From Piezodorus guildinii (Eukaryota > Arthropoda > Insecta > Hemiptera > Pentatomidae), in NCBI GenBank assembly GCA_023052935.1, contig CM041298.1, positions 62,366,217-62,430,216 of the forward strand: a DNA stretch of 64,000 nt, read 5' to 3'. Numbering within the stretch: the first letter of the stretch is position 1; each line of letters starts with the position of its first letter. The notes beneath the pieces are model-generated. The model did no database searches. It saw only the letters and a program-made list of their open reading frames with translations, and had not been told where the DNA came from. The translations under genes and the position numbers were made by a program. Below, one piece after another: positions 11,955 to 61,030 of this stretch.

Positions 11955-11992
11955 TGATGCCTGAAAATGGCCTTAGAGGCTGAAACGTTGTA
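11955..11992 (+). other. Degenerate hammerhead-like motif
   Basis: CTGAAAA (11961-11967), a short TGGCC/GGCT stem, then GAAAC (11982-11986). It resembles the cores at 32894 and 58078, but the essential G of CUGANGA is A here. No flanking inverted arms were seen. Likely a remnant of a related element. Confidence 0.3.
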
Positions 11993-24432: not shown

Positions 24433-27110
24433 TTAAGTAAGTAGATCCCGAGGCCATCTTCTTTTCAATCGCCTAGGAGGGTTGTCAGGAATATGTGAGG
24501 TTGATAGGTTGCGGACAAGAGGGTTTATATGGGCTGGGAGTTTGGAATTAAAAGTGGTATATCTGGTACGAGAAAGGTCTGTAACAAATGGGATATTAAG
24601 GTCGTTATGGATTATTTTATTTGTGACGAAATAAGGAGCATTTAGGATTTTTCGAAGGATTTTGGATTGTAAGGATTGGATACGGGAGGAATTAGATGGC
24701 TTCGTAGAGCCCCAAAGCTCGATTCCATATGTCCAGATGGGTCTGATGACGGTAATATAAATGAGCTTTTTGTAATGAATTGGAAGTTTTGAACGTTTGT
24801 CGAGTAAGTGTTGTAGTAATCGGTATCTACGGGCAGTCTCTTGTCGTTTTAGTCTCGTGTGAGGATTCCATGTAAGACGTTTATCAAGATGGAGTCCTAG
24901 GTATCGGATTTGTTCAACAGGAATGAGTGGGGTATTGTTAAAGGATACTGTGGGGCAGGAGGTCATCGTTTTGCGACGAAGGGTAAAGGTAATTTGGTGG
25001 GATTTATTAGGATTTATTTTAATCCTCCAGTTCTGACACCATTTCTCAATGGCTGTGATGTGGGACTGAAGGGTTTGGGATGCTGCGGTTGGATCATTAT
25101 GGACGGATAACACACAAGTGTCATCCGCGTAAGTTGTGAGGACAGTGCTAAGATGGAGTGGAATATCAGCTGTATATACCGTATAAAGGATGGGACCTAG
25201 GATACTACCCTGAGGTACACCTGCAGACTGAGAAAATGTGGAAGAATAGGAAAGATTATGATTTACTTTGAACGTTCTATCAGTAAGGTAGGAACGGATT
25301 ATCAGGAAGTATGTAGCGGGAAGGAATTGACGGAGTTTATAAAGGAGTCCTGGGTGCTAGACTCGGTCGAACGCTTGTTCTACGTCAAGAAAAGCACCCG
25401 TGCAATACATTCCACGCTCCAATGTGGAGGATATAACATCCACCACACGGTGACATTGCTGAATTGTAGAATGGGATGTCCGAAATCCAAACTGATGGTC
25501 AGGTATTACGTGATTCATTTCTAGGATCGGATACAGGCGTTTCAAAATGAGTTTTTCTAGGATCTTTCCCATGATGGGTAAAAGGGAGATCGGACGGTAT
25601 GAGGATGGATGTTCAGGAGGCTTTTGGGGTTTTGGGATCATTTTGATTATTGGCAGTTTCCATGGTTCAGGGAAATAGGTGGTTCGGAGAGTAGCGTTGA
25701 ATATATAAGTGAGGTAGTGGATTGCTTTTCGAGGTAGCTGTTTTAGGATATAGGATGTGATGAGATCATGACCAGGTGCCTTTTTAATACGTAATTGATG
25801 GATAACGTTAATTATTTCAGAAGGATGAAAGGCTTTAGGAGGAGGGGACATTTGGAGTGGAATAGTTAAATATGGGTTGGATTAAGGATTTCAGGATGTG
25901 GATTAAATATTTTGGAAAGGTGTTCACCAAATATTTGTGTCTTTTCTTCATCTGATCGAGACCAGGTAGAAGATTCGGTAAGGAGTGGGTGATTAAAGGT
26001 TTTGAATTTGAGCAAATTTTTGGTAGTTGTCCATAAAGATTTGTCAGTCGGTCTTAGGTTTTCTGTGAAGTCCCGAAATGTTTGTATTTTGAATTTTCTA
26101 ATTTCAGTTTTGAGTTTGTTAGTTAGATGAGTATAGTGTGTTTTGTCGGACGGGTATCTGGACCTATGCCACTTAGCCCTTGCTCGCCGTTTCTCTGCTA
26201 ATAAGTTTCGAATGTGATATGGTAAGTTAGTGTCGCGGGCGTAATTATTTTTGGGATGTGATGAGTTGTTATTAATTGCAGTACCTATTGTTCTTGTTAG
26301 TTTTTCGATAGCAAAGTTAATTTGTTGTTCTGTTTTTAGTGGAATCGTTAAGTCAAGTTCGTTTTCTAGTTCTGAGCGAAAGTTGTCCCAGTCAACATGT
26401 CCTGTAATTAAAGAAAGAGGGAAGGATTTAGGAATAGGGTCTGAATGAAGAAGCAGCAGAACTGGGCTATGGTCTGAGGAGAGGTCTTCTAAGGATTTTA
26501 CTGTAGATTGAAAGGTGGGAATTTGGGATGTGACGAATATATCAAGAATATCTGGGCGCTTTTTAAGGGAAGTAGGCCAGTAAGTAGGATCTTTGGGTGA
26601 TAAGACGGAATAGCTGTTGGAAGTGGTGACTTGGGAGAGAATCCTGCCACGAGTGTTGGATGTTCGGCATCCCCACCGTTGATCTTTGGCGTTGAAATCT
26701 CCCCCGGCAATGAAGCGCGGACCAAAGGACTGAAATAAGGAATTAAATTGGCGAGAGGAGAGGGATTTGCCAGGAGGGCAATATACAGCTGAGATGGTTA
26801 TATTAAATGGACGGCAGGATAAGGTAATAGAAGTCGATTGGATGGCGTCAGTTGGAGTAGAAGGAATCAGGGAGTGAGTTAAGGAATTGTGAATAAGGAT
26901 ACAAGAGCCAGCGTGGGATGTTTTGTCAGGGTGATCTGATCTGTGTGTGATGTAGTCACGTATGTAAAAGTGTGAATGAGGTGTGAAATGGGTGTCAGTC
27001 ACAAGGGCAGTGTCTATGTTATTGTCGTGAATAAATAAGTCAAGCTCGTCTCGGTGATTAAGCAGTCCATTAGCGTTCCATAATAGAATAGCCAGGGTCT
27101 TCCTACTCAT
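24433..27110 (-). pseudogene. J1 ORF2: endonuclease and reverse transcriptase, two lesions
   Basis: Jockey-clade ORF2 of about 890 residues if read through its lesions. The endonuclease spans 27110-25866 (LLWNANGL, GGDFNAKDQRWG, SSDHSPVLL). A one-base frameshift at about 25866-25880 leads into RT (KKAPGHDLITSYIL, SSYRPISLLPIMGKILEKLI, FGFRTSHST, FLDVEQAFDRV). There a TAG replaces the expected Trp codon of DRVWHPGL (25357). The same frame then continues with GVPQGSILGPILYTVY, YADD, INPNKS and YLGLHLDKRLTWNPH, and ends NPPRRLKRRWPRDLLT. No RNase H, as expected for Jockey. The ATG overlaps the ORF1 stop (ATGA). It would be inactive as it stands. Confidence 0.9.
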
Positions 27111-29141: not shown

Positions 29142-29149
29142 TCTGACAA
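29142..29149. repeat. Left hAT target duplication
   Basis: TCTGACAA, repeated exactly at 31426-31433. Eight base pairs is diagnostic of hAT transposition. Confidence 0.95.
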
Positions 29150-31425
29150 CAGAGATGGGCAAAATCGCATTCGGATATACGAATATGAATGCATTCGGGA
29201 AGATCGAGTTTTGAAAATACGAATACGAATGCAATCGTATTTCAAAAAAGAATACGAATGCATTCGTATTTCGAAAAAATATACGAATACGAATATACTC
29301 ACAGATGTAGACAGATATACGCCCGAATTTCACAGGTATGCAAAGGGATACGGTCATATTCCACTGGTGTGGGCCGTATTCCACTGGTCTAAAAACGTAT
29401 ACGGACCTGTGTACAAGTCAATATGTACGCATTTGCAGGCGTGAATTCGAATGCGGTCAATAATATCTTATATTAAAAGACATAAAATTTAATATTTATG
29501 ATTTTTTTTTTAATAGTGGTCAATTTGAAATAAATAGTTAATGTTAAAAAAATAACTTTATTTCGTCGGAAGTATATATTTTAGATTAAATAAAATAACA
29601 TAATTATTAAATACAATCATAACTAAGGTGATACTTTTTATATTATTTAACATTTTCTGTAAAATCTGTAGCTTTATAACGGTCTATTATGCTTTTCTTA
29701 TATGCGAATCGAAAAATAATAACCTGGAAAAAGTTTATTTTTACATTTTTTATATTAAAGTTTCTTTAATATTTATCCATTTATTCTTAACACTAGCAAC
29801 AAGAAGTGGTGAGATAATTAAAATAAACAAAATTAACAATACATAAGGTATTTTTTTATTTCATTAGAATAAACTTAAATCTATAGATTTAAAAGTGAAT
29901 ATGTAACAATTAATGATATAAATATTAATAATTGTTTCATATTCATTTTTATTCGCGCTTTACTTCACTTCATTATAACCAATTATTTTTGTTATTATTA
30001 TTTTTTTTTTTTATACCACTTTAATGTTTTAGGATATACTACATTCATTTTCATAGGAAATAGAAACAGGTTCATGAATTATTTTCTAAAAATGCCTCTA
30101 CGGCAAAGGGTATTATTCCTAGTTTAGTTAGTATATTCCTAGTCCATTTAGATTTTTTTACACTCTATTATGAAAATTGATTAGTTGGTTTTAATTAATT
30201 TAGGGATTTCCTTCTGCTTTTGAGTCTTGCAATACTTCCTAAGAAGTTTGTCACATATTTAGTCTCTTTTAATAGGCTCAAAATCCCAGGGCAGGTATCA
30301 TGGTAAAATTCCCGATGGTAAAGTTCCCGATGTCCCGTGGTTCTAAGGCGGCTTTATATTACTTCTTATCTTCAAACAAAGTTAACATTAAAAAAAGGAT
30401 TATACTGAATTTCGATTAAAGCATTTATTTTATATCAAATTACTAATAAGAATAAATTAATAATAATATAGTATATACGATAAAAACTAAAGTTTTTTGC
30501 GGTTATCATCACTCTCAATTACAGCTTTGAATGTTACATAAGTACTTTTATTAGCGCTTTACTTCACTTCATTATAAAGAATTAATTTTATTATTATTAT
30601 AACTTTCAATGTTTTGGAATAATAGCAAACTTCTAAACTTAGAAAATAGAAACATAATCATGAAAAGTCAATGAGTCATTCCATACCTGGATTACCTAAA
30701 CACTTCACTGTAAATGCTTAAAATTCAACATTTTACCTATTTCTGAATGGGTGGTGTTTATTTTCACATAGTTGGTTTGAAAAGTTAAAATATTTACTGA
30801 ACTTTACTTTCAATATAAATTTTAAGCTCAAAAAAAAATATATCAAAGGGATAATATTTCTTTTCTTTTATAATATAATTTATAATGTTATTTATAATAT
30901 AACTGCATTAATGTTTTTCATTTTCCACAAATTAATAAATTTTAAGAAATATTTGTTAAATTATTTCATTATAGAGAAGAGAACTGTATGAGAGTTGATA
31001 TATGTAAATAAATAGATATTCGTATTTAAAGAAGTTATTTCAACAATATTTGAATAATATTTAAAAAAAAAATCATAAATATTAAATTTTATGTCTTTTA
31101 ATATAAGATATTATTGACCGCATTCGAATTCACGCCTGCAAATGCGTACATATTGACTTGTACACAGGTCCGTATACGTTTTTAGACCAGTGGAATACGG
31201 CCCACACCAGTGGAATAAGACCGTATCCCTTTGCATACCTATGAAATTCGGGCGTATACCTGTCTACATCTGTGAGTATATTCGTATTCGTATATTTTTT
31301 TCGAAATACGAATGCATTCGTATTCTTTTTTGAAATACGATTGCATTCGTATTCGTATTTTCAAAACTCGATCTTCCCGAATGCATTCGTATTCGTATAT
31401 CCGAATGCGATTTTGCCCATCTCTG
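29150..31425. mobile_element. Non-autonomous hAT element with about 364-bp inverted repeats
   Basis: A 2276-bp element starting CAGAGATGGGCAAAATCGCA and ending with its reverse complement. The inverted repeats are 29150-29513 and 31061-31425; I count only about five differences. It is flanked by a perfect 8-bp duplication. The hAT-type CAGAGATGGGC terminus and 8-bp duplication assign the superfamily. Subterminal DNA holds several inverted ATACGAAT/ATTCGTAT pairs. The 1.55-kb centre is AT-rich, has no transposase motif, and carries a diverged internal duplication (about 29945-30070 and 30545-30665, both with gcgctttacttcacttcatt). It must be mobilised in trans. Confidence 0.95.
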
Positions 31426-31433
31426 TCTGACAA

Positions 31434-32256
31434 GAACTAGTCCTAGTGAGTGATAGCCTATGACAGCCTGTACAGGCAGCAGCCTGCTTACCACGAGGCG
31501 CACCTTTAGGCTATTAACACCACTCCAAAAGTTAACTAATAATCACTCACCTCACTGAATTACAGTATAAACTTGATTACTGTCGTAAAAAGACGATGTT
31601 TATAAACGTTGGCAATAATCCGTGAGTTAATACCACAGTTATAAAGATGCTAGTGCAGAGCGATAACTAAGCGTGACATTAGTTTCGGCCATGACACTGG
31701 TACTCCCCGAAAAAGTGCGTTTGAAACCACTGTGGAACGTCACATAAAAATCTTCACTTAATTCCTCACCGAGGCAGGTAATAAATCGTTGATTAACCTG
31801 TATAATAAGTTGCCTTAATTTAACCTTAATTAGAAACAGAGCGGGTAGCTTCGTTAGAGACATAGAGTGGAGGGGATAAACCTAAGCGAGATTTAAGTAG
31901 TTTCCTATGGCGGTTATGGGAAGGGAACAGTTTAGGATATTGGAAGCGAGGTGCGGACCTGGCCCGAGTCCAAAGCATTACCTGGGTCCCCTCCCACTCT
32001 CCAACTTTATGACCCTTCCCTCATAAACAGTTTTTACCTCACTAGGCTTTTATATTCTCACTCCCCCATCAAAAAGGAGTCCCCTTTGAATGTTAATTCC
32101 TGTTTTCCAGTTGTAAAACGTATATGGCAGTTATTTTACGTCGCTGCTCCTCAGTGCTTTTTCTGACCTAATATAGAACATGATATTTTTCAGATTTACG
32201 CATACAACTATCCTTACAAAGCAATATAAGGGATAAACTAATGAGAGATGGATCTC

Positions 32257-32260
<4 letters not shown>
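31434..32260. other. Unassigned DNA
   Basis: Contains a less AT-rich patch near 31890-32010 (ggtgcggacctggcccgagt). No exon-like frame with recognisable motifs on either strand. Confidence 0.35.

Positions 32261-32261
<1 letters not shown>

Positions 32262-32310
<49 letters not shown>
32262..32310. repeat. (TA)n microsatellite
   Basis: About 24 TA units, next to the Helitron relic. Confidence 0.95.
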
Positions 32311-32312
<2 letters not shown>

Positions 32313-33130
32313 AGCAGTTGCCCGCGTCTTCGTCTGCGCCAATTTCAGTTATTATGATCGTGATTAAGAAGTTTTTAAAAGAATATATTTAAAATTACTT
32401 CTACGTAAATTATACTTTTATTTTTATTTTCTTGTGGCAGAAGAACAAACTGATTTTCTCCTCAACCCGATCTTGATAACATCACCGTGTAAAAAGCAGT
32501 CTTGGCGTAAATGGATTCCTACGTGTTTAAATGTTTGTCCCTGTGATTTAAATATTACGGTAAAAAATAACAACGGAAAATTGAATTATTTTAAAATTAA
32601 AATGTAAATCATTGGGATGCGAGGTTAATTTCCTCCGGTTTTTGTACATTTGCCACTGATTCTTCACTTCTATTGGTCGTACCGTGATGATTTATACCCT
32701 AAAGCCTTCCTCGATAAATAAACTATCCAACACAAAAAGAATTTTTGGAAGGAATTAGTCCGGGTAGCGGTCATTAAATGAAACAACTAAATAGTTTCAA
32801 CTATTTTATTGTTTGCCAACGTTTCGACCCCCTTTGTGTGTCTCTCACTGGAAACTCAATTCACCTGGGGTTTCCATTCACCCATCATGCGCCCTGATGA
32901 TGACCCACAAAGGGGGTCGAAACGTTGGCAAACAATAAAATAGTTGAAGCTATTTAGTTGTTTCATTTAATTGACCGCCACCCGGACTAATTCCTTCCAG
33001 TAATTCTCAACGGTCAACTAATTACATCCACAATGATAAAAAGAATTTTTTCATTTCGGACTAGTAGTTTCTGAGATTAGCATTCAAACCAACAAACAAA
33101 CTTTCAGCTTTATAGAATAGTATTAGGATG
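32311..33130 (-). mobile_element. Helitron-type element relic, interrupted
   Basis: Minus-strand translation of 32440-32640 contains RIPMIYILILK, a stop, FNFPLLFFTVIFKSQGQTFK and HVGIHLRQDCF. This is the PIF1/Helitron helicase C-terminus, in which the I(N)KSQGQTF box is motif V/VI. The 3' side (gcccgcgtcttcgtctgcgc at 32321) and the other side (gactagtagtttctgagatt, 33059) look like parts of the same element. The region is split by the insertion at 32747-33037. Stops and lost motifs make it dead. Confidence 0.7.
32734..33050. mobile_element. PLE-like inverted-repeat insertion with hammerhead-like core
   Basis: AAAAAGAATTTTT occurs at 32734-32746 and 33038-33050 as a 13-bp target duplication. 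Between them are 291 bp: an arm of about 92 bp from GGAAGGAATTAGTCCGGGTA, a centre, the inverted arm (three differences), and a one-sided tail of about 38 bp (33000-33037). On the plus strand CTGATGA (32894-32900), a GACCC/GGGTC stem and GAAAC (32919-32923) form a hammerhead-type core. Penelope-like elements are known for inverted terminal repeats with a short extension and for hammerhead motifs, so a small PLE derivative is the best guess. No coding sequence. Confidence 0.7.
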
Positions 33131-33162
33131 CATATATATAATATTTCTCAAGATCATATCTT

Positions 33163-33733
33163 TAACAATCCATCAACTCCCTATACTCAATGACTCCTGC
33201 AATCTAAATCGTCAGTCCACTCCCTCCAAACAATATGGCGCCATTCTGACCTTTAAATTACTACACATTGAACAACAACTTCTGATCATTCCTTTCTTGT
33301 CCGCTCTACTACTCTCTTGAATTCATTACCTACTAATATCCGCCATGCTTCTCCTCTATCATCAATCAAGTTCCAGCTGTTCGAGTACCTGCTATCATCT
33401 CAAACATACGCTCAAGAAGCCTGATATTTCCCATGAAATATCGATTAAAAAAGGAAATTCATTATATATTTTACGTAGTTAATGGATCAATTATTATGAA
33501 TCAGTTTCAATGTCTAGGTTTGTTCAACACATTAATATATCAGAAGTTATTTATTTATTTTACTCTTTCATTGTTTAATTTAATCTAATCTTTTCTTCTT
33601 ATATCATTATGGATAGAAGAATTAATTATAATCCTTTGTTCTGTGGTAAGACACCTTGTATATCTTAATTGTGCATATCAATTGTTCTTATGGGACCCTG
33701 TCCTAGAATAATTTTTTTTGCTATTCTATTATA
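33163..33733 (+). pseudogene. CR1-like LINE C-terminus and 3'UTR, diverged
   Basis: Plus strand reads SVHSLQTIWRHSDL, a stop and then SDHSFLVRSTTLLNSLPTNI, RHASPLSSIKFQLFEYLLSS. This is collinear with the C-terminus of the CR1-like ORF2 at 51.2 kb (IHSLETRSRHSDL, RSFIVRSTTLWNSLPIHIRH). The 3'UTR ends near 33733 with gggaccctgtcctagaataa and a ttctatta tail, as in the 50.8-kb element. Three stops. Inactive. Confidence 0.82.
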
Positions 33734-34734
33734 TATATGTATGTGTGCGTATTCAATGTCAACACGGTCCTTGGGCTCCACGAACTTATTAACAACGCGA
33801 CGGATTTTGATACGGTTTTCACTATAATTTATGTCATTCAGGTTTATAAGTACAATTGCTATGTTTTTAACCGGCTGCTTTTCTAAGGCAGCGGTAGCTT
33901 CAAAAAACTAGCTTACTTACTATATTTAGTCAATATATAAACTATATTTAATGATACCATGGATCTCCTTTCCAAAGGTATCGTGTTTACCAATCCAATA
34001 GGTGGCATGCAGGGTAAGATTAAAGTAAACAAGATTCAATTAATACATTACTATAATTATTAATTTACACATATCATTATATTCACATATTGCCTAAAAC
34101 TCTGATTGAGAATACTGAGGGATTTTTCACTACCTTTGCCATACAATATTACAAATAACAATATACCTTTGAAACACTTAACCGGCTGGCGAAGGTGAAA
34201 TCAGTCTTAGGTCCCCTTTCTTGGCATCATCCTCCAGCTGCTCTCAGAACCCCGACGGCCACCTCCTCTTCTAGTAGATGGAACCCGACTCCTCTAGAGG
34301 ATAAAACTTGACTACCTCTTCGGTTCTTCTCTCTCATTCTCGTCACCTCGGGTGGGCCGAGATGGGATGTGCCCCGGTTGGCGGTATAGCCTTTGTGCTA
34401 TTATTCTTATCTTTTCACCAATCTTAATATTCTTGTTGGCCGCCGATGGGAGGAAACTACCAGAGGTTTCTGGTACCGCTGGGGGGCCCATACCGATGGG
34501 AAATCTAGGGGGCAAGATAAACACCTTTTGATGTTTTGCCGATAAAGGTTCGTTATCATTAATTGTTTAATATTAAAATTATTTAATTATGAACTCGCCT
34601 CAGTATCCTCAATACATTACACAATATACTATCAGTCTTTCTTTAGGCGAGGATTAAAATATTTAAGTAATTTTAAACGATTCAAACTTAGACGAAGAAA
34701 ATATTCGAACCAAACATAAATTTCATATTTGAGT
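33734..34734. other. Unassigned DNA with a GC-rich island at 34200-34530
   Basis: The island (about 330 bp) is strikingly GC-richer than its surroundings. The minus strand is open for 70 codons (MGPPAVPETSGSFLPSA, RPTRGDENEREEPKR), but I do not recognise a family. It could be a mobile-element ORF piece or an untranslated exon. Confidence 0.3.
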
Positions 34735-35253
34735 ATAATTGGCTCACCGGGGGTGCTACTTTGTACCATGCATTTTGCAATTTATTTGAGATTTTCTCAA
34801 AAAAGGCACCAACGATATTAATGTAACTCGCTGTATTAATCTAAATTTTAATGGGCTTTAATATGACATAGATTATATATCAATTGAAACAGCATGAAGG
34901 GGCTTAAATGCCGATAATTTAAATTTTATTCATCTAAAGTACCTTCAATTTTTTAGATTAAAAAAAAATATAATAATAATGCTATTTTTGTGTTTTTGGG
35001 GATAAGAAAAGTAATAAATATGCATTATAAACCGTTGGAAAGCTGCTGATTTTGGACAAATAAAATTATCTTATACACAATATTGTAAAAGTTAACTCAA
35101 GGTGATGAAAAGCCGATAAAACTAAGTTATTAAAAAATTGTTGTAGATAATAATCAATTATTTAACCTTTTTTTATCTATAATTGTATTTAAAAATGCTT
35201 AAATTAATTTCAACAACGGATGTATGGGAAAGTCGTGTGTTGCACGCACCAGA
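34735..35253 (-). mobile_element. HEL copy, 3' end missing
   Basis: From gtgctactttgtaccatgca to the HEL 5' terminus (agtcgtgtgttgcacgcacc). Fairly diverged (for example the ggaggtaagtg block is ggatgtatggg). Confidence 0.75.
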
Positions 35254-35355
35254 TTTATACTTTTACTTAATTTAATATATTTACTGTTTTGTATGTATCG
35301 TGTGAATGTTAAGTATCGCTCAGTATAGAATTGTTTCTGAGAAAAAAAAATTAAT

Positions 35356-35357
35356 AT

Positions 35358-35438
<81 letters not shown>
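35356..35438. repeat. (TA)n microsatellite
   Basis: About 40 TA units between two HEL copies. Confidence 0.95.
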
Positions 35439-35441
<3 letters not shown>

Positions 35442-35603
35442 AAATCACGTAAATTTCTGAATTCTAGTTTTTACCAGGAATATTTAAATGTATATTCTCT
35501 GAGGTTCTCTGATTTCATATGACCAAGTAGCACAAAATAGTCTGTGTGTGTTAAGGTTAGTTCGAAAACGAAATTGTTTTAGTGTTTTACTCAAATTTCA
35601 TTT

Positions 35604-36501
35604 TTACTTTCACTTACTATATATAGTAGGGGAAAGTATTGCGATCGTGAAAATTTTCGAAATCCAGTTTTCAACGGAAATACACATTTTAGGGTCCCCT
35701 GAGTCCAAATAACCAAGTCCCGCAAAAAGGTCTGTGTGTGTGTGTGTGTGGTAACTCCCGGGCGGAAACGGTAAGTCCTAAAAAACTTAAATTTAATATT
35801 TAGGACAAATATACACTCGAGACGTTACAAATCCTTTTTCATCAAAATGAGCTTATCAGAAGAGCCACTTTATCCTATGCATTTTGCACCTTTTTTCGAT
35901 TTTCTCAAAAACGGTTCCGACGATTTTGTTTGATTAAACTCGCTAAATCGATGTAAAATTTAATGGGCTTTAATATCCTGTAGGTTTTATTCTGATTAAA
36001 ATGGTTTGACAAGGCTTAAATGTCGATATTTAAAATTGTCTTCCCCTAAAGTACCTTTAATTTTGTAGATTCAATAAAAATAACTATATCATCTTGTTAC
36101 CACTGATAAAAACAGGTAAATATGTAAGTTGTGCGAATTTAAAAAATAACTAAAGGAGAAAACTGAAAAAAAAATGTTAGTGCAATTTTTTGTTTTTGAA
36201 CATAAGAGCAGTAATATACATGTATGATATACCGTTGGAAAGCTAAAGATTTTAGAAAAAATATTATCTCATACACAAGCATTTAAAAGTTAATAGAAAG
36301 TGATGAAAAGAAGATAAAACTTACTGATTATTTTAGATAATAGTATAATAATTTTTTTAATAAATTACATGTTTCTATAGAAATTAAATTAAATTAATTC
36401 TTTAATAGTTTCACGTATTTTTATCTCTAACAGTATTTGAATATTCTTTCAATGATTTTAAAAATGGAGGTAAGTGAAAGTCGTATGTTGCCCGCACCAG
36501 A
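35604..36501 (-). mobile_element. HEL copy, full length
   Basis: Both termini are present: ttactttcacttactatata at the left and gtcgtatgttgcccgcacca at the right. It has a (TG)n tract at about 35731-35750. The HEL 5' half (higher coordinates) is nearly identical to the copy at 56440-57329, including private variants (aaatgttagtgcaatttttt, gaaaagaagataaaacttac). Confidence 0.85.
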
Positions 36502-37194
36502 TTTTTAAGACATATGATTGTCTTTAATATTTTGTCGATTGTAGTTTATTCATTTATTTCATATGACTCTTTAGAATTTGAATTAAGATTATTTTTTCAT
36601 TATTTAATACGTAATCCAATCCAAATACCTAAGAAAAGAAAAACTGACTGGTAAGTAATAGAATCATACTCTTTAAAATTTATTGAAAACATAAGAAAAT
36701 AATAAATAAAGAAGCGGGGTTAACAAAATCCCGACGAGACCCGAAGTATATCCTACAACGAAATTTCTCTTAAACAGGAAACTTCTTGAAAAGACGAACT
36801 CTCTGTTTATTGTTCCTCTTACTAAACAAAGGAAAGTAAATCTGATTTCAAACTTTATCTATCCTCGAGATGCGGTAGCTTATTGTTGGAAGGTTTGACC
36901 CCAACTGCTTTTGGTGAGGCGATGGTGTAGCGAGATAAGGTGTGGGTTGTATTCTGGTGCAGTAGCTTACGGCACTGCAACATCAAAAGACTAATTTAAA
37001 AAGTGTCCTCTTGTCACGTAGCTCTCCCAGAGGGGAGACTTGTTTATTACGATTTCGCTCTTTTCCCTTCTTCTAGAACCGTTTTCGAGATATTTTTCAT
37101 GGAAGGTTTGCTTGAACGTATCTTTTGGCATATTGCTGATGTTCAAGATTGTTTTTTAAGTAAAATTTCTTTAGACGAGAATTAGGGGTAACTA
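36502..37194. other. Unassigned DNA
   Basis: The 36830-37180 part is less AT-rich. An open frame at 37003-37185 lacks any family signature. Nothing else recognised. Confidence 0.35.
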
Positions 37195-38093
37195 TTGGGT
37201 TGATGCAAAATTAATGCAGGTTTCCTCTATTGCAATATCTTAATTCCAATTGTGTAAACAAAGCTATTCCTAACATTGATCATTATTATACCAAAACAAA
37301 CCTTATCTAATACCCTCTCTTTCACCATGAATTTGTTTAGTAAAATCGTTTTGTTCAGTGTGTTCAAAGGTCTTGAATCGAAAATGTCAAAGTGCGATTT
37401 TCGTCAAATTTATTTTTACGAATTTAAATTAGGGCGCAGCGCTGCGCAAACGGCTCGTAATATTAATGAAGTGTGGGGTCAGGGGGCTATTAATGAGTGC
37501 ACGGTGCAGCGTTGGTTCCAGAAGTTTCGCAGAGGGGATTTCGATCTCGAAGACAAGGAAGGTCGGGGCCGTCATCTTGCTCTGGACAACGACCAGCTGA
37601 GGTCAAAAGTGGAAGAAGACCCAACCAAAACCACACGAGAAATGGCGGCGGAACTCGGAACTCAAAAATTGCAACGTCTTTGCCCAGCATTGATGAATCG
37701 GAAGGGGCCGATCCTGCTCCACGATAACGCCAGACCACACGTTGCACAACCAACGCTTCGACGACTGCACGAGTTGGGCTACGAAGTTCTCCAACATCCG
37801 CCTTATTCACCTGACCTCTCTCCTACAGACTTCCACTTTTTCAGGCATCTGGACAACTTTTTGAGGGAGAAAAATTTTCAAAACCAGGACGACATTGAAA
37901 ATTCTTTTCGTGATTTCATTGAGTCCAGGGATTCGGATTTTTTTTCTGGTGGAATAAGAAAGCTTGTTGAACGTTGGCAAAAGTGCATTGATTCAGATGG
38001 AAATTATTTTGATTAAATATATATGGTTAAAGTAAAGATATGGCGTATTTACAATACCTACTAAAAACCTGCATTAATTTTGCATCAACCCAA
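37195..38093 (+). mobile_element. Internally deleted mariner, perfect 29-bp TIRs
   Basis: An 899-bp element. TIRs are 37195-37223 and 38065-38093, starting TTGGGTTGATGCAAAATTAA, identical 29 of 29. The left flank ends in TA. The right flank begins TC, so the TA duplication is broken on that side. The transposase frame inside is intact across an internal deletion. TIR and protein resemble the cecropia-type mariners (the Hsmar1/SETMAR group). Confidence 0.93.
37384..38016 (+). CDS. Mariner transposase with in-frame internal deletion
   Basis: 210 residues from the ATG that starts MSKCDFRQIYFYEF (37384); an upstream in-frame ATG at 37276 is not homologous and is disfavoured. The N-terminal helix-turn-helix DNA-binding half is present (GRSAAQTARNINE, TVQRWFQKFRRGD, TKTTREMAAELG). 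It is joined at about 37655-37665 directly to the C-terminal catalytic part (NRKGPILLHDNARPHVA, YSPDLSPTDFHFF, RWQKCIDSDGNYFD). About 135 residues, including the first catalytic Asp of the D,D34D triad, are missing against the usual 340-350. It should bind TIRs but not cut. The frame stays open across the junction. Confidence 0.9.
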   Translation: MSKCDFRQIYFYEFKLGRSAAQTARNINEVWGQGAINECTVQRWFQKFRRGDFDLEDKEGRGRHLALDNDQLRSKVEEDPTKTTREMAAELGTQKLQRLCPALMNRKGPILLHDNARPHVAQPTLRRLHELGYEVLQHPPYSPDLSPTDFHFFRHLDNFLREKNFQNQDDIENSFRDFIESRDSDFFSGGIRKLVERWQKCIDSDGNYFD

Positions 38094-38369
38094 TCAATGC
38101 TTTGGATTACATTAATGCAACGAAAACGCTAGTTGTTGTTGTTTTGGTTTTAAGGGCAAAAAACTGCGAGTGGTTATTATTGCCCAAAACATCATCAGAA
38201 GACGATTAACTTACCTATGATGAAGAAAAAAAATTATAATAAATAAAAAAATAAATAATAATAAATAAAAAAATATAAAATAAACAAATAATAAAAAATG
38301 AAATAAAAAAATAAAAATTGTGAGTAAAATATCAACAATTGCGTAAAATAGCCTAAATGTGTTAAATGA
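38094..38369. other. AT-rich simple sequence
   Basis: 38220-38320 is aataaata-type low complexity. It may be the decayed tail region of the adjacent minus-strand LINE fragment. Confidence 0.5.
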
Positions 38370-51177: not shown

Positions 51178-53979
51178 CTAATCGTCTATTTGGGATGACA
51201 GAAGGTATAGGAAAAGTTGGGATTTGAATGAGGATAAAGAGGCAGCATGACGGATATGGATTGGTAGAGAATTCCAGAGTGTGGTAGAGCGAACAATGAA
51301 GGAACGATCAAAGGTTTTGGTTCTGTGGGTAGGAAGGTACAGGTCAGAATGTCGCGATCGAGTTTCAAGTGAGTGGATTGAGGATTTAAATTGAAGGAGA
51401 CTGTAGATGTAGGAAGGATGCTGGGAGTTAATAGTTTGGTAGAGGTATGATCCAAGGAAATATTGTCTGCGGGTTGAGGGAAGGAGCCACTTTAATTCAC
51501 CGTATAAGTGGGTAACATGAGACCTCCTTGATGTACCGAAGACAAATCTTAAGAAAATGTTCATAATACGCTTTAGTCTGTCTTCAAGCACAGCCGGGAG
51601 GCCGTCATACACCGCACAACAATAGTCAAAGTGGGGGAAAATAAGTGAGGATACGAGGAGCTTACGAGTGGATTGGGGGAGGAGATGACGGGATCGATGG
51701 AAAAATTTAAGAGTACTGATTGTTCTTCGGGAGATTTGGGCAATATGAGGTTTCCAGGAGAGGGATTGGTCGATGGTGATACCTAGGTTTTTGACAGTGG
51801 AACTGAACGTAATTGGGTAATTATTAAGGATTAGACTCGGAAAGTTGGTATGACATTTGATAAGGGAATTGGAACCTATTACAATTGCTTGCGTCTTCAT
51901 GGCATTTAGCTTGAGGTTATTCAGATATCCCCAGGCACTGATTCTATCCAGGTCCTCCTGAATCTTCGAAAATGCTAATAATGTCTCGGAGGAGGAGAAG
52001 GATAGGTAGATCTGGAAATCATCAGCGTACAAATGGTGGGAGCAATGATGGATAGAGTTAGGAAGGTCATTAATATAGGCATTAAAAAGGAGAGGAGATA
52101 TACTTGAACCCTGGGCCACACCTGCCGAAAGGGCCAGAAAGGAAGAAAGAGGATGATTAGGAATGGTGACAGCTTGGGTTCTACCAGTGAGAAATGAGTG
52201 AAACCAACGAATGGTGTTGTTGGAAAAGGATAGGGATCGTAGTTTGGAGAAAAGGATGGAGTGGTCCACGGAGTCAAAAGCTTTTGAAAAGTCTAGAAGT
52301 ATTAGTACGGTCAGTTTCTTTTCATCCATAGCAGTATGTATGTCGCTGGTGATTTTTAGGAGAGCGGATTGTGTGGAAAAACCAGGTCGGAAACCGGATT
52401 GGAGAGGATCAAGAAGTTTAGACTTTTCAAGGAAATTAGATAATTGAGATTGAACTATTCTTTCTAAGGGCTTGGAAAGGTTAGATAGGATAGAAATTGG
52501 GCGATAGTATTTAGGGGATGTAGGATTAGAGGTTTTATTGATAGGGTGGACTATTGCTTTTTTCCAAGTTGATGGAAATATAGAATTTTGGAGGGAAAAA
52601 TTATATATGAATAGGAGAACTGGTAGGATTTCGGGAAGGCATAATTTTAGTAGTTTGACGGGTATTCCGTCAAATCCTATAGAGTTGGTATGGGATTTCG
52701 TTATAGAGGAGATAAGGTCAGTTGGTGTGATATCGGAAAAATAAAAATCATCTGGATTAAATGATGTAACTGAAGAAAAGTCGGAAGGATGTGGAAAATG
52801 ATTATCAGAGGAGGAGGATGAAAAGTATATATTTAATTCATCTGGGGAGGCTTGATAGGATGTTGAGGAAGATGATTTGCAAAGAGACAGTTGGCGAAGG
52901 AGTTGCCATTTTGATTTTGAATCGGGAGCAGAGGAGAGAGTTTCGTGAAAGTAATTAGATTTTGCTTGTCTGATTGTTGCCTGAGTCAGATTGCGGAGTG
53001 CCCTGAACGCTTGATAGTCTTCCGTTAGTCTAGTACGTCTGAAGCGTCTACGGGCAGCATCACGCCTCTTCTGTAAGTCTTTTATTGCTGGACTCATCCA
53101 AGGAGCAGGGCGGCTACGGAAGGTGCAGGTTTTGAGGGGAGCATGTTTATCGAGGATGCTGATGAGGTTAGAAGTGAGGATATCGACCATTGAATCTATA
53201 GAGGTACATGAATATATATCGTCCCACTTTAGGACTTCAAGATCGGATTGGATAATTTCACGGGTAAGAGAGTTGATATTACGGAAAGTTGTTGTTTTAG
53301 GAAGGATTGCTGGAGTTTGGATATTGTATGATATGTGTATTAGGTCATGACAGGATAAGAATGGGACTGGTATTTGAGATGAAGAGAGAAGGCTATGTGC
53401 CGAATCAATTACATGGAGGTCTAGCCAGGTATCTGAACAACGAGTATGATGGGTGGATGAGAAAGGTACAATGAAAAGATTAAGGGAAAAGAAGAGATTT
53501 TCGAGGTACAGTTTGTCATTGGAGTTGGAAAGGAAATTGGTGTTGAGGTCACCGGAGATTATAATATTGTTATAGAGAGGAACGTAACTGTAGAGGGTGG
53601 TTTCAAAAGGAGCATCGAACGGAACTAAAGGAGGGCGATACACTACTGCAAATAAGAGAGGATGATTGTTACAAATGATTTCAAGGATAATAAATTCAAT
53701 ATGAGGATGATCGGATGGGGTTGAGACATCTAGGATACGGGATTTTAGGCTATTATGTACATAGAGACCGACGCCTCCGCCCGTGCGGCCTAATCGGTCA
53801 TGACGTAAGAAGGAGTGGTCGGGTAAGAAAATAGAAGAGGAGGGAATGTAGGGTTTTAGCCAAGTTTCTGATACTGCAATGATATGGTAAAAGTTCTGGG
53901 TAAAGTATTGAAGGAATTCATCATAATGAGCGGGCAAAGATTGGGAGTTGACGTGGCAGATATTTAGGATATTAGTCAT
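51178..53979 (-). CDS. CR1-like ORF2: endonuclease and reverse transcriptase, intact
   Basis: 933 residues, uninterrupted. APE-type endonuclease at about 1-230 (CHVNSQSL, AVSETWLKP, GGGVGLYVHNS, SGDLNTNFL; the usual SDH box reads SCHDLIH). RT at about 430-760 (SPKYYRPISILSNLSKPLER, LQSGFRPGFSTQSALL, DFSKAFDSVDHSIL, GVAQGSSISPLLFNAYINDL, YADD near 651, VKNLGITIDQSLSW). The C-terminal tail (RFVFGTSRRSHVTHLYGELK, RSTTLWNSLPIHIRHA) is typical of CR1/L2-type LINEs. No RNase H. It performs target-primed reverse transcription in the nucleus. The ATG at 53979 is the first in frame. It looks capable of activity. Confidence 0.93.
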   Translation of the reverse strand: MTNILNICHVNSQSLPAHYDEFLQYFTQNFYHIIAVSETWLKPYIPSSSIFLPDHSFLRHDRLGRTGGGVGLYVHNSLKSRILDVSTPSDHPHIEFIILEIICNNHPLLFAVVYRPPLVPFDAPFETTLYSYVPLYNNIIISGDLNTNFLSNSNDKLYLENLFFSLNLFIVPFSSTHHTRCSDTWLDLHVIDSAHSLLSSSQIPVPFLSCHDLIHISYNIQTPAILPKTTTFRNINSLTREIIQSDLEVLKWDDIYSCTSIDSMVDILTSNLISILDKHAPLKTCTFRSRPAPWMSPAIKDLQKRRDAARRRFRRTRLTEDYQAFRALRNLTQATIRQAKSNYFHETLSSAPDSKSKWQLLRQLSLCKSSSSTSYQASPDELNIYFSSSSSDNHFPHPSDFSSVTSFNPDDFYFSDITPTDLISSITKSHTNSIGFDGIPVKLLKLCLPEILPVLLFIYNFSLQNSIFPSTWKKAIVHPINKTSNPTSPKYYRPISILSNLSKPLERIVQSQLSNFLEKSKLLDPLQSGFRPGFSTQSALLKITSDIHTAMDEKKLTVLILLDFSKAFDSVDHSILFSKLRSLSFSNNTIRWFHSFLTGRTQAVTIPNHPLSSFLALSAGVAQGSSISPLLFNAYINDLPNSIHHCSHHLYADDFQIYLSFSSSETLLAFSKIQEDLDRISAWGYLNNLKLNAMKTQAIVIGSNSLIKCHTNFPSLILNNYPITFSSTVKNLGITIDQSLSWKPHIAQISRRTISTLKFFHRSRHLLPQSTRKLLVSSLIFPHFDYCCAVYDGLPAVLEDRLKRIMNIFLRFVFGTSRRSHVTHLYGELKWLLPSTRRQYFLGSYLYQTINSQHPSYIYSLLQFKSSIHSLETRSRHSDLYLPTHRTKTFDRSFIVRSTTLWNSLPIHIRHAASLSSFKSQLFLYLLSSQIDD

Positions 53980-55042: not shown

Positions 55043-55883
55043 ATTTAGGGCACAGCCATGATTTTTTATTAACTCTCAGAGTTTCTATTTCTTTTTCTTT
55101 CAAATTACAGCACTTGCCGTGAAATATATATATATACAATATATACAACTGCTAAGGGGACCCCAGATTGGGCTTTTCCCTCCACTTGTGGAGGAAAAAA
55201 GCGGAATCCAAAAGATCCCAGCGCCCCTCTCTCAGCCGCATCACTGGTCTTAGCCAGTCGAGGCTGAGTTAGGGCGCAATAGCCAAAAACATACATTACA
55301 TGAGTGGAGGATCTGACCAGTGTCAGAACTCCAGTCTAAATATTTACAGAACGTCGCGGGGCCACTGCCGTTTCAATCTTCCTGGAGGATTGTAGGAGCG
55401 GATGGAGCTGGAGAGGGATTGAGCTAGAGGATTAGGATGATAAAGAAGGTTCTGATGGAATTTGGATGGCACCAGGTCTAAAATAAATGAAATTTTAAGG
55501 TCGTGGTGTAAGGTACAGTTAGAAACATAATAGGGAGCATTAAATATTGTTCGTAGGACTTTGGATTGGATGCGTTTGATATTAGAATGTTTAGCTGTCC
55601 CCCACAGTTCAAGTCCGTAGGTCCATATAGGTTTCAGTACTGTCTTGTATACTCGTAATTTGTTGTCAACTGTAAGATGAGATTTTCTGTTTAATAGTCT
55701 GTATAAATGGCCGAATGGGCGGTTGAGTGCTTTTCTTTAAGTCTTTTATGTGGGTTCCATGTTAGTCTTTTGTCTAGTAAAAAGCCCAGATACCGGACTG
55801 TGTCTGAGGAAGGAAGCGGTAACGGATTGTATTTAACTGTTGGGCAGAAGGGTGAAGGTGACGTGTGTGCAACCTTACTATTT

Positions 55884-56439
55884 ACTAATAAAATAAGTTT
55901 ATAAGTTTATCGGCTTACATATACTTTATTATAACTTTTACGATTCCTTTTATTACGTATTAATATTTCGGAATTCTTGCACTTTCTGATGATATATCAT
56001 ACGTCTATGTTCCTAATTATTTCATTGAATTATTTTTTTACGACTAGGTTACACAAAATGTATTTTTCCCGTTTAATGGAAAGCTACATTGCCATGTATT
56101 TTACTAGTAAACCTTCAGGAAACAATGCACTTAATGATGGTAAAACCATTTCGAAAGCCGTCTTATGGCTTAGAAGGAGTTAGCGGAAACCAAAACCGCG
56201 TCATCATTTTATGTATAGTGAGATAATGTCCTAACGTAGTGACGAAGGTAGTTTTGTTTAATTAGTATGCAAAAAGTTACCCTCAGTTTGTGGGCGATTG
56301 CAGTGGTTAAATAATATCTACATTTAATCAATGCACATAAAAAGAAAATTAATATAAACAGAAAATATGTCAATTCAAATTTAAATGGACTCTCTGTCAT
56401 ATATAGGTATATTATATTTATTTTTTTCGTCCTCAACTA
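55884..56439. other. AT-rich DNA, nothing recognised
   Basis: No motif-bearing ORF or shared repeat. Confidence 0.4.
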
Positions 56440-57329
56440 TTACTTTCACTTACTATATATAGTAAGGTAAAGTATTGGGATCGAGAAAATTTTCAAAATC
56501 CAGCTTTCAGCGGAAATACACATTTTAGGGTCCCCTGAGTCCAAATAACCAAGTCCTGCAAAAAGGTCTGTGTGTGTGAGTGGTAACTCCCAGATGGAAA
56601 CAGTAAGTCCTATGAAAGTGAAATTTCATATTTAAGACAAATATACGCCCGAGACGTTACAAAACTTTTTTCATCAAAGTGAGCTTACCAGAAGAGCCAC
56701 TTTATACCATGCGTTTTGCTCCTTTTTTCGATTTTCCCAAAAACGGTTCCGACGATTTAGATTAAACTTGCTATATCGATGTAAAATGTAAAGGGCTTTA
56801 ATATCATAAAGGTTTTATTTGGATAAAAATGGTCTGACAGGGCTTAAATGCCGATATTTTAAATTTTCTTTCTCTAAAGTACCTTTAATTATGTTGATTC
56901 TATAAAAATAACTATATCATCTTGTTACCACTGATAAAAACAGGTAAATATGTAAGTTGTGCGAATTTAAAAAATAACTAAAGGAGAAAACTGAAAAAAA
57001 AATGTTAGTGCAATTTTTTGTTTTTGAACATAAGAGCAGTAATATACATGTATGATATACCGTTGGAAAGCTAAAGATTTTAGAAAAAATATTATCTCAT
57101 ACACAAGCATTTAAAAGTTAATAGAAAGTGATGAAAAGAAGATAAAACTTACTGATTATTTTAGATAATAGTATAAAAATTTTTTTAATAAATTACATGT
57201 TTCTATAGAAATTAAATTAAATTAATTCTTTAATAGTTTCACGTATTTTTATCTCTAACTGTATTTGAAAATTCTTTCATTGATTTTAAAAATGGAGGTA
57301 AGTGAAAATCGTGTGTTGCTCGCATCAGA
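56440..57329 (-). mobile_element. HEL copy, full length
   Basis: Both termini are present (ttactttcacttactatata, gtgtgttgctcgcatcaga). Very close to 35604-36501, so the two are recent sister copies. Confidence 0.85.
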
Positions 57330-57339
57330 TTTTTTTAAA

Positions 57340-58203
57340 GTAATTATGTTTTTAGATTATTCTATTATGAAGAGTTCTTAATATAAATTAGGTATTTTGG
57401 AAATGATCTCTTCTTTTTGATAATTATTCATTTATTTCTCATACATAATTTAATTACCGTTTCGGGGCTAACAATTCCTCATCTTCAGAATTTACAGTCC
57501 AAACTATTAACAATTAAAAATTAAATTAATTTAAAACATTAAACAAAACACAAATATCACAATTAATCGATTCATCATCACAATACACAATTTTAATAAT
57601 ATTATATCTATACTTACATAAATACATCTTCCAATATTGTCCAAAATCTTTTATAAGTTAAAATTTCTTATTTACTTAAATAATGGACAGGTTTTTAAAT
57701 ATCTCTTGGTTATTAAAAATTTAACATTTTCTTTAATAATTTAATATTTTATTAACCATTTTATACATAGGCTAGGAGTAGACTGGAGTTTAAACCTTAC
57801 TCCCAATCCACCACAAATTTATACCAATGCATGTATACGTATATTTTTTAAATATCAAAATATTAAATTCAAAACATACTTATGGTTGGAGTATTATTTA
57901 TTTTAATTTGTTAATTATATCAGCATAGTTATAGCTTATTTTCTTTTAATCCAATTTATAATTAACTGAATTATTTAAATTTTTTGTAATGTAAATTGAT
58001 TCCAATATTTCTCTATTTTTTCCTTTTTGTTCTGTATTTAGTATTTTTGTTTTTGAAATGTATTTGGACTGTGAATTCTGAAGATGAGGCATTGTTAGCC
58101 TCGAAACGTTAATTAAATTATGTATGAGAAATAAATTAATAATTATCTTATATTCTTATGTAAAAGAACAGATCGTTTCCAAAATACCTAATTTGTAATT
58201 ATG
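57340..58203. mobile_element. Second inverted-repeat insertion with hammerhead-like cores
   Basis: GTAATTATG occurs at 57340-57348 and 58195-58203. The 846 bp between start with a one-sided tail of about 36 bp, then an arm (aaattaggtattttggaaat from about 57384). The inverse arm lies at about 58050-58194, arms being roughly 130-145 bp with one indel. Both arms hold a CTGAAGA..GAGGC/GCCTC..GAAAC core: plus strand at 58078-58107, minus strand at 57488-57459 (stem slightly changed). The centre (about 57520-58050) is AT-rich and non-coding. The layout parallels 32734-33050. Confidence 0.6.
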
Positions 58204-58289
58204 CTTGTTTTATGTACTTCAGGCAGACATAGACACGTTATATTTATAGTATTCTTAAGGGACTTTATTTTCATTACTACTTTGATATC

Positions 58290-58560
58290 AAATAAAATCA
58301 AAATCAAAATATAGTCCATTGTTATGCACAGTCATCACCTATCAGCATGCGAGGTGATGACATTATTTTAAAGTTTTCATAGACCGCACTTTTAACTTTC
58401 TCTAATTAACAATTTTTTTTCCTTGAAGAAAATGAGCCATTGACCGAAACAAGGAGTAATCTGATGGTCCGAGGTCAGGACTATATGATGGATAAGGCAG
58501 GACTTCTCGTACCCACGCAGTCAATTTAACTTTCTGAGTTGTTGCTGGAGTAACACTTCT
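58290..58560 (-). pseudogene. Mariner transposase C-terminal relic
   Basis: Minus strand reads KVKLTAWVREVLPYPSYSPD, LGPSDYSLFRSMAHFLQGKK, then stops. The YSPDLGPSDYSLFRS block is the mariner third-Asp region (D,D34D), a different mariner from the one at 37.2 kb. No TIRs were recognised. Decayed. Confidence 0.8.
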
Positions 58561-59087
58561 TTTTGGTTAAAACTATGAGTGTTCGCCTAACAGGTACGCT
58601 CAATTTAATCAATGTGCTACAAGCGACCATCTTTTTGAAATATAAAATATATGGTAAGAAGAGAAGCCTAAGTACAGCAGAGGCGAGCACACTCCACTCC
58701 ATTTCCTTCTTTATTCTGAGTACGCTGTTATAAGGATGAATTAGAGGAAAAAAGGGTGGCCCTGGGCTGGATGACGAGGCGGGGAGAATGTAGAGATGAA
58801 TTGAGAGGAGCAATATACCAAAAAGTAATTATGTAGCCCACCTAAATTGTAAACCATAAACTTTCCCAATGGTTTAAATTACACCAATATTTAATCCCGT
58901 CAGTTTTTTCACTCATTCAATACAGTCCACTAGTTCTTGCTACCTCTTGGTCCAGTCCTAATCATTCTTCATAATGATCGTTAGAGGACAAGGAGTATAA
59001 CACTCTGACAACAAAGAATTACCACAGTGTAATACACATCCTATTTACTTAATAATTAATTACGCTCATTCCACATTTGCATTATTT
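58561..59087. other. Unassigned DNA
   Basis: Nothing recognised beyond possible upstream sequence of the mariner relic. Confidence 0.35.
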
Positions 59088-59963
59088 TTACATTCACTTA
59101 CTATATATAGTAAGGGAAAGTATTGCGATCGTGAAAATTTTCGAATTATCCAGTTTTCAACGGAAATAAACATTTTAGGGTCCCCTGAGTCCAAATAACC
59201 AATTCCCACAAAAAGGTCTGTGTGTGTGGTAACTCCCGGGCGGAAACGGAAAGTCCTAAAAAACTGAAATTTCATATTTAAGCCAACTATAGAAATGTTA
59301 CAAAACCTTTTTTTATCAAAATGAGCTTACCAGAAGAGCCACATTATACCATGCATTTTGCACCCTTTTTCGATTTTCTCGAAAACGGTTCCAACGATTT
59401 TGATTACACTCGCTATATCGATGTAAAATTTAATAGGCTTAAACGTCATGTAGGTTTCATTCTGATTAAAATAGTCTAACAGGGCTTAAATGCCGATATT
59501 TTAAATTTTCTTCTTCTAAATTACCTTTAATTTTGTTGATTCTATAAAAATAACTATATTATCTTGTTAACACTGGTGAAAAACGGGTAAATATGTAATT
59601 TGTGCGAGGTTAAAAAACAACTAAAGGAGAAAACTGAAAAAACAATTTTTTAATGCAATTTTTTGCTTTTGAACAAAAGAGCAGTAATATACATGTATTA
59701 TATACTGCTGGAAAGCTAAAGATTTTAGAAAAAAATTTAGCTTATACTCAGCTTTTAAAAGCTAATAGAGAGTGATGAAAGGAAGATAAAACTAACTGAT
59801 TATTTTAGGTAATAATATAATAGATTTGTTAATAAAACACATTTTTCTATAGAAATTCAGTTTAATTAGTTCTTTTATAGTTGCACTCATTTTAATCTAT
59901 AACTGTATTTGAAAATTCATTAATAACGGAGGTAAGTGAATGTCGTGTGTTGCCCGCACCATA
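59088..59963 (-). mobile_element. HEL copy, full length
   Basis: Left end ttacattcacttactatata, right end gtgtgttgcccgcaccata. (TG)n is short (59217-59229). Moderately diverged from 35604 and 56440. Confidence 0.82.
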
Positions 59964-60970: not shown

Positions 60971-61030
60971 TCTGATGCTGGCAAGACACGACATTCACTT
61001 ACTTCGGCTGTTAAAATCAATATTAGAACT
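60971..61030 (+). mobile_element. HEL 5'-end fragment
   Basis: tctgatgctggcaagacacg and cattcacttacttcggctgt correspond to the HEL 5' terminus with a small insertion. The remainder is absent. Confidence 0.55.

Follow-up and report, generated by a model that had tools for sequence, protein, structure and literature searches.

A 291-bp insertion at positions 32747-33037 of the window, the whole 64,000-nucleotide stretch of Piezodorus guildinii DNA that was analysed, very probably originates from a Penelope-like element (PLE). It looks like a non-coding, 5'-truncated PLE insertion with an inverted pseudo-LTR (pLTR), which is a known kind of element. Judged by its sequence, the right side is most likely the sense pseudo-LTR end, carrying a predicted minimal hammerhead-type core, and the left side a shorter antisense cDNA of the same RNA region. 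This assignment is based on the anatomy: the arms are inverted, a tail of 30-40 nt is present on one side only, the target-site duplications are of unequal length (13 and 12 bp), and a second insertion repeats the plan and the core. PLEs are a separate class of retroelements, and their insertion mechanism is still being worked out.

Anatomy of insertion 1

The features of the first insertion and of its duplications are listed below in the numbering of the window.

32734-32746, unstranded: left copy of the target-site duplication, AAAAAGAATTTTT, 13 bp
32747-32838, minus strand: left arm, putative partial antisense pseudo-LTR, hammerhead 5' core not intact (from the alignment)
32839-32890, unstranded: centre and junction between the arms, with a short TGGAAAC...GTTTCCA inverted repeat (from sequence, fold and alignment)
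32891-32929, plus strand: minimal hammerhead-like motif 1 (from the descriptor scan; no Rfam hammerhead match)
32891-32893 and 32927-32929, plus strand: stem I of motif 1, GCC / GGC
32894-32900, plus strand: CTGATGA of motif 1, followed by an extra T at 32901
32902-32906 and 32914-32918, plus strand: stem II of motif 1, GACCC / GGGTC
32919-32923 and 32924-32926, plus strand: GAAAC and GTT of motif 1; predicted cut after 32926
32906-32998, plus strand: right arm, putative sense pseudo-LTR end, reaching +99 from the ATG at 32900 (from the alignment)
32999-33037, plus strand: one-sided 39-nt tail, reaching +138 from the ATG and without a counterpart on the left (from the alignment)
33038-33050, unstranded: right copy of the target-site duplication, 13 bp, identical to the left copy

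An earlier, sequence-only reading of this DNA had described a 291-bp insertion with a 13-bp duplication, 92-bp inverted arms and a tail of about 38 bp on one side, and all of this was borne out. The two copies of the duplication agree at 13 of 13 positions, the arms align head to head with 90 identities, 2 mismatches and 1 gap, and the tail measures 39 nt. The arm alignment can be extended by 4 nt inward on each side; closer to the centre, gaps of about 19 nt and several changes separate the left arm from the right. The outer end of the left arm corresponds to sense-strand position +99. Read in the sense direction, the left arm has GTGAGAGAC at the place of the core, so that an intact core is absent there. 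The whole insertion folds as a hairpin at -177.1 kcal/mol, with a z-score of -22.9 against shuffles, because it is an inverted repeat. A BLAST search against the window returned the insertion itself, its own arms and short weak matches, and thus no second copy within the window. Twelve of the 13 positions of the duplication are A or T, a richness equalled by 9% of the k-mers in the window, which has an AT content of 66.6%.

The surrounding DNA holds other elements. On the minus strand of the left flank (32300-32746) there is a frame, broken by stops, with IFKSQGQTFKHVGIHL, which we take to be a PIF1/Helitron-helicase motif. The placement of the insertion in a Helitron relic by the sequence-only reading therefore keeps this motif, read by eye, in its favour, but Pfam scans of the left flank gave no PIF1/Helitron helicase domain. 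The right flank, at about 33194-33410, matches 51183-51399 with 75% identity, and the latter segment is part of an ORF that has a reverse transcriptase domain as well as a weak endonuclease match. A 2.3-kb stretch at 29149-31426 is bounded by inverted repeats of 366 alignment columns that are 98.6% identical and is probably a young DNA transposon. At 37194-38094 there is a mariner-type element with 30-bp perfect inverted ends, the ORF of which has a Mos1 HTH domain and a DDE_3 match below the curated cut-off. Finally, a protein search with a 1245-aa non-LTR ORF found 45 proteins, the best named ones being from a mosquito and a moth with 29-30% identity. Fungi and a snail supplied further matches, and the result suggests no more than an arthropod-like host.

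A second insertion with the same plan

About 25 kb away from the first, an insertion of 843 bp (57352-58194) follows the same plan. Its features, and those of a third motif, are as follows.

57340-57351, unstranded: left target-site duplication, GTAATTATGTTT, 11 of 12 positions matching the right copy (from the alignment)
57352-57384, minus strand: one-sided tail of 33 nt on the left arm (from the alignment)
57385-57503, minus strand: left inverted arm, hammerhead-like core decayed (from the alignment with the right arm)
57504-58062, plus strand: region enclosed by the arms (three plus-strand frames scanned, no Pfam domain)
58063-58194, plus strand: right arm, reaching +111 from the ATG at 58084 (from the alignment)
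58074-58114, plus strand: minimal hammerhead-like motif 2, in the right arm (from the descriptor scan; no Rfam hammerhead match)
58078-58084, plus strand: CTGAAGA of motif 2, followed by an extra T at 58085, GAAAC, and GTT at 58108-58110
within motif 2, plus strand: stem I AATT / AATT and stem II GAGGC / GCCTC
58195-58206, unstranded: right target-site duplication, GTAATTATGCTT, 12 bp (from the alignment)
11961-11989, plus strand: decayed motif 3, resembling the other two, CTGAAAATGGCC..GGCTGAAACGTT, with G8 changed to A (from a one-mismatch core scan)

In insertion 2, the alignment of the two arms contains 112 identities, 7 mismatches and 13 gap positions, the latter made up of one 10-nt and one 3-nt gap. 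Its duplication begins exactly where the right arm ends and stops 33 nt beyond the left arm, which gives a tail of 33 nt on the antisense side; in insertion 1 the tail is on the sense side. An equally good 12-mer duplication was found in 0.1% of 4000 shuffles. The duplication is A or T at 10 of 12 positions, as are 24% of the k-mers in the window, and the AT-richness of both duplications is weak evidence by itself. Between the right arms of the two insertions there is no detectable similarity (local score 25). For insertion 2, extending the arms upstream gave nothing above chance (75 of 300 shuffles were as good) and was dropped. An inverted partner of the third motif was sought and none was found.

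Insertion 2 is flanked on the left by the end of a repeat of roughly 280 bp with several further copies in the window (57052-57335 and about 36224, 3511, 5535, 59697, 43587, 39807 and 40623). These copies are up to 97% identical, and a T-rich run stands at the end of most copies shown.

The hammerhead-like core

The layout of motif 1 is GCC-CTGATGA-T-GACCC-acaaagg-GGGTC-GAAAC-GTT-GGC and that of motif 2 AATT-CTGAAGA-T-GAGGC-attgtta-GCCTC-GAAAC-GTT-AATT. The core is unchanged between them, and stems I and II are wholly different in sequence yet still paired. Both motifs have what defines a minimal PLE hammerhead, namely CUGANGA, stem II, GAAA, UH and stem I without helix III, plus one extra U. 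This U separates CUGANGA from stem II in all three motifs of the window, including the decayed one, and is a departure from the canonical hammerhead. Stem III is absent from motifs 1 and 2, in which GAAAC abuts GTT. Reviews ascribe minimal type I hammerheads without helix III to Penelope-like elements (PMC6155905; PMC7761336), and the second of them reports thousands of such stem-III-less forms in many animal genomes, with cleavage as dimers being possible (PMC7761336). The likeness of the window motifs to the minimal type I PLE hammerheads of Cervera and De la Pena (2014) and Lunse, Weinberg and Breaker (2017), as citing papers describe these, lies in CUGANGA, stem II, GAAA and the lack of helix III; the extra U before stem II sets the window motifs apart.

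The sequence-only reading had recognised a core of the form CUGANGA-stem II-GAAA. The elements CTGATGA, GACCC/GGGTC and GAAAC are indeed there, but the U at 32901, before stem II, had not been taken into account. Other details have to be corrected. CTGATGA does not start the second arm but begins at 32894, just inside the loop. Stem I, which had been called not obvious, is present as the GCC/GGC pair, and stem III, for which a segment of the opposite arm had been put forward, is absent: GAAAC runs directly into GUU, the opposite arm does not supply the stem, and minimal forms of this kind do without it.

A descriptor that asked for 3 bp or more in stem II, preceded by one nucleotide at most, picked out two places on both strands of the 64 kb, 32894 and 58078, each with a stem II of 5 bp. 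With a stricter descriptor (CTGANGA, a stem II no shorter than 4 bp, GAAACGTH and a stem I no shorter than 3 bp) the same two places were found on both strands of the 64 kb and none in 120 second-order Markov windows, and the core-only descriptor is expected 0.067 times per window. A further place at 26474-26517, from a loose scan that allowed one core mismatch and gave four results, was dropped (stem I of 1 bp, GAAAGGTG).

The core also contains an ATG, within CTGANGATG (at 32900, and at 58084 in insertion 2), that starts at A9, directly after G8. Counted from the A of this ATG, the predicted cut follows the base 26 nt downstream in both motifs. The reading frame of the ATG runs for 12 codons in insertion 1 and for 4 codons in insertion 2 before it meets a stop, and therefore the ATG is not the start codon of a long frame in either copy.

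Folding as monomer and dimer had been proposed as a check by the sequence-only reading. The monomer of the whole insertion 1 is the hairpin described above, and forcing the hammerhead in it gives -130.3 instead of -177.1 kcal/mol, a cost of 47 kcal/mol that arises because the left arm sequesters the 3' half of the hammerhead. For an RNA without the left arm, starting at 32843, 32860 or 32880, the cost is 2.2 kcal/mol. When two hammerhead segments were cofolded, no hammerhead dimer was predicted. These energies suggest that the hammerhead, if active, would be a property of the RNA of the parent element and that the arm hairpin would mask it in a transcript of the whole insertion.

Rfam searches and viral controls

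The sequence-only reading had made a covariance search a check on its hammerhead and counted the lack of a hit against itself, and here the outcome went against it. Rfam at the gathering cut-off found no hammerhead in the whole window, and at E up to 10 (32500-33300, 58040-58140 and 32880-32945) it found no hammerhead for motif 1 or motif 2. The weight of these negatives can be judged from controls. For the gathering cut-off, 16 of at least 80 viral loci (at least 120 stretches listed) were used, which hold 19 canonical cores, 10 of them with a stem III of at least 3 bp and a stem I of at least 4 bp. The 12 matches in these 16 loci were all tRNA, and 0 of the 19 canonical cores were reported as a hammerhead. 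In the viral contig L044, three textbook motifs match Hammerhead_1 at E up to 10 with 30.2, 27.2 and 25.1 bits; the gathering score is 34. Since textbook control hammerheads were missed at the gathering cut-off, the negative obtained there is uninformative, and for such motifs the practical lesson is that only the permissive setting informs. The permissive setting (E up to 10) did find the controls of L044, and the negatives that it gave for the window are therefore real and speak against a canonical hammerhead.

The Rfam type I hammerhead model includes stem III, and a form without this stem may therefore score low. Both the missing stem III and the extra U cost score, and a minimal form might give a negative of this kind. 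With textbook hammerheads as the controls, the Rfam negatives weigh against a ribozyme rather than for it. A miRNA-like match to mir-2300, with 48 bits against a threshold of 90, is expectable from a long hairpin and was set aside.

Relatives outside the window were sought in three scans of viral contigs, and none were found there. The first scan gave 0 stretches. The second gave 18, of which L002 and L011 showed 6 bp or more in stem II, and the third gave 21, none with a stem I above 2 bp. L002 is regarded as a coincidence, with a stem I of 1 bp and surroundings that by eye look like phage coding sequence. L011 (IMGVR_UViG_3300037423_001962) can be drawn on the minus strand, at about 3735-3670, as a three-stem hammerhead with a stem II of 5 bp, a stem III of 8 bp ending in GTC, a stem I of about 5 bp and an extra U after CTGATGA as in the window motifs; Rfam reported no hammerhead for it at E up to 1 or 10, and its minimum-energy fold is without stem I. 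The three textbook hammerheads of L044 are of type I and lie within about 700 bp (2403-3095), each followed by a similar AT-rich string that ends in ATTATTATGA.

Comparison with Penelope-like elements

Several features of PLEs recur in both insertions: inverted parts of a pseudo-LTR, tails on one side only (39 and 33 nt), and duplications of variable length, 13 and 12 bp, at AT-rich DNA. Counted from the ATG, the arms end at +99 in insertion 1 and at +111 in insertion 2, and the tails at +138 and, in the copy with a 13-nt gap, at +131.

The closest comparison is with the Poseidon PLE of Anolis carolinensis, PAc (PMC11167929). The start codon of this element comes after C3 and G8, with the cut site 26 bp downstream (PMC11167929). 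Reverse transcription in vitro has an internal start at 111-118, and the tail of 30-40 bp is the stretch between two start sites of reverse transcription (PMC11167929). Both strands of the target DNA are cleaved and extended, with the same start site on both, and ribozyme mutants insert normally in vitro (PMC11167929). What the window insertions share with PAc is stems I and II of the hammerhead, the start codon after G8, the predicted cut 26 past the ATG, a presumed internal start of reverse transcription near +111, a tail of 30-40 nt and AT-rich targets, the 111-118 region not being assigned to either of the two start sites (PMC11167929). They differ in that PAc has an ORF from this ATG and the insertions stop after 12 or 4 codons, and in that the proximal end of insertion 1 is at +99 as compared to 111-118 in PAc (PMC11167929).

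A similar architecture is known from Pen2a of Adineta vaga. The Pen2a paper describes PLEs that end in an inverted pLTR, may carry a 31-bp tail on one pLTR and have duplications of 8-10 bp, and also an inverted pair in which one pLTR is 37 bp shorter (PMC3846280). Pen2a and the window insertions have in common the head-to-head inverted pLTR parts, an optional tail, of about 31 bp in Pen2a, on one of these parts, and short duplications, but the duplications are 8-10 bp in the former and 12-13 bp in the latter, and no coding region was recognised in the insertions (PMC3846280). The word hammerhead has 0 occurrences in that paper (PMC3846280).

PLE enzymes were looked for in the window. Pfam scans of six frames over 31400-36200, around insertion 1, gave no match and no PLE domain, and scans of the three plus-strand frames over 55800-61600, around insertion 2, gave no match either. 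Of the 28 ORFs of at least 110 aa in the window, 10 were scanned: a reverse transcriptase domain was found in 4 of these 10 and a GIY-YIG domain in none. Truncated PLE copies need not retain these two domains. As for the proposal of the sequence-only reading, a Penelope-like element with a hammerhead, the anatomy and the second insertion speak for it, but its description of the ribozyme was partly wrong and there is no Rfam match.

Origin of the inverted arms

For the inverted arms we tentatively propose, at slightly less than an even chance, that two-sided target-primed reverse transcription produced both insertions, each 3' end independently picking a proximal or a distal start. In this mechanism a PLE endonuclease would introduce a staggered break at an AT-rich site, with 3' overhangs of 13 nt for insertion 1 (12-13 nt across both insertions). 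Both 3' DNA ends would prime reverse transcription inside the element RNA. One of them would start at the proximal site (+99) and give no tail, and the other at the distal site (+138), which would give the tail. Joining of the two cDNAs head to head would then form the inverted arms. The identity of the enzyme, the priming from two sides and the activity of the ribozyme are what we infer. As the tail lies on the sense side of insertion 1 and on the antisense side of insertion 2, the choice of start site looks independent of the side, with two cases only. Both arms of both insertions run across the predicted hammerhead cut site, which indicates that the RNA templates were not cleaved there. A stem-loop that both insertions seemed to share around the proximal start site was dropped as not above chance (fold z-scores of -1.76 and -0.59 for insertion 1 and 0.01 and -0.68 for insertion 2; shuffle p of 0.11 and 0.49). 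In the literature searched, two-sided priming was not found as the source of inverted pseudo-LTRs, which is no proof of its being unpublished.

An alternative that we consider rather unlikely, but that deserves attention, is a PLE insertion in which the inverted arm arises through self-priming, a single cDNA or antisense-transcript copy being folded back and copied. It is favoured in the Pen2a paper, as palindromes are common at inverted junctions (PMC3846280), and the short TGGAAAC/GTTTCCA inverted repeat at the centre of insertion 1 fits with it. A fold-back is, however, expected to copy the tail as well, and in both insertions one side is tail-less, which would require the copying to stop before the tail each time; the position of the tail on the sense side of one insertion and the antisense side of the other also speaks against it. 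The arms of insertion 1 are moreover not identical at the centre, although a later deletion could cause that.

It is improbable that the insertions form a non-autonomous mobile family of their own, with inverted pLTR ends alone and the PLE enzyme acting in trans. Unrelated sequences caught between solo pLTRs with duplications, described in the Pen2a paper, imply that pLTR ends suffice in cis (PMC3846280). Insertion 1 has, however, no second copy in the window, and the hammerhead, perhaps along with the template region, would be concealed in the hairpin.

More improbable still is a miniature DNA transposon (MITE or foldback element) with long inverted repeats, in which the hammerhead-like string occurs by chance. 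The long, near-perfect inverted repeats, the short non-coding body and the lack of an Rfam hammerhead match would suit such an element. The one-sided tail, the unequal duplications of 13 and 12 bp and, in particular, the same core with replaced yet paired stems in two insertions would not. Least probable, and to be given hardly any weight, is a metazoan non-LTR retrozyme, one of the small non-autonomous retroelements that carry type I hammerheads and spread via circular RNA. These share with insertion 1 a hammerhead-type core inside a short non-coding element and coexist with PLEs (PMC7229834), but they are tandem repeats (PMC7229834) and mostly have stem III in invertebrates, most of whose type I hammerheads are able to fold a stable helix III (PMC7761336). 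Insertion 1, in contrast, is a single insertion with inverted copies and no other copy in the window, and the window motifs lack stem III.

Implications for PLE insertion

If two-sided target-primed reverse transcription is true, it explains both the inverted pseudo-LTR and the presence of a tail on one side only. The crossing of the predicted cut site by both arms bears on the role of the PLE hammerhead, since the templates would have been unprocessed at that site. With two unlike insertions that have their tails on opposite sides, the combination of an inverted pseudo-LTR and an optional tail would turn from a descriptive oddity into a testable prediction: genome-wide, the presence of a tail on the two sides should be independent, and the outer ends should fall at two positions relative to the hammerhead.
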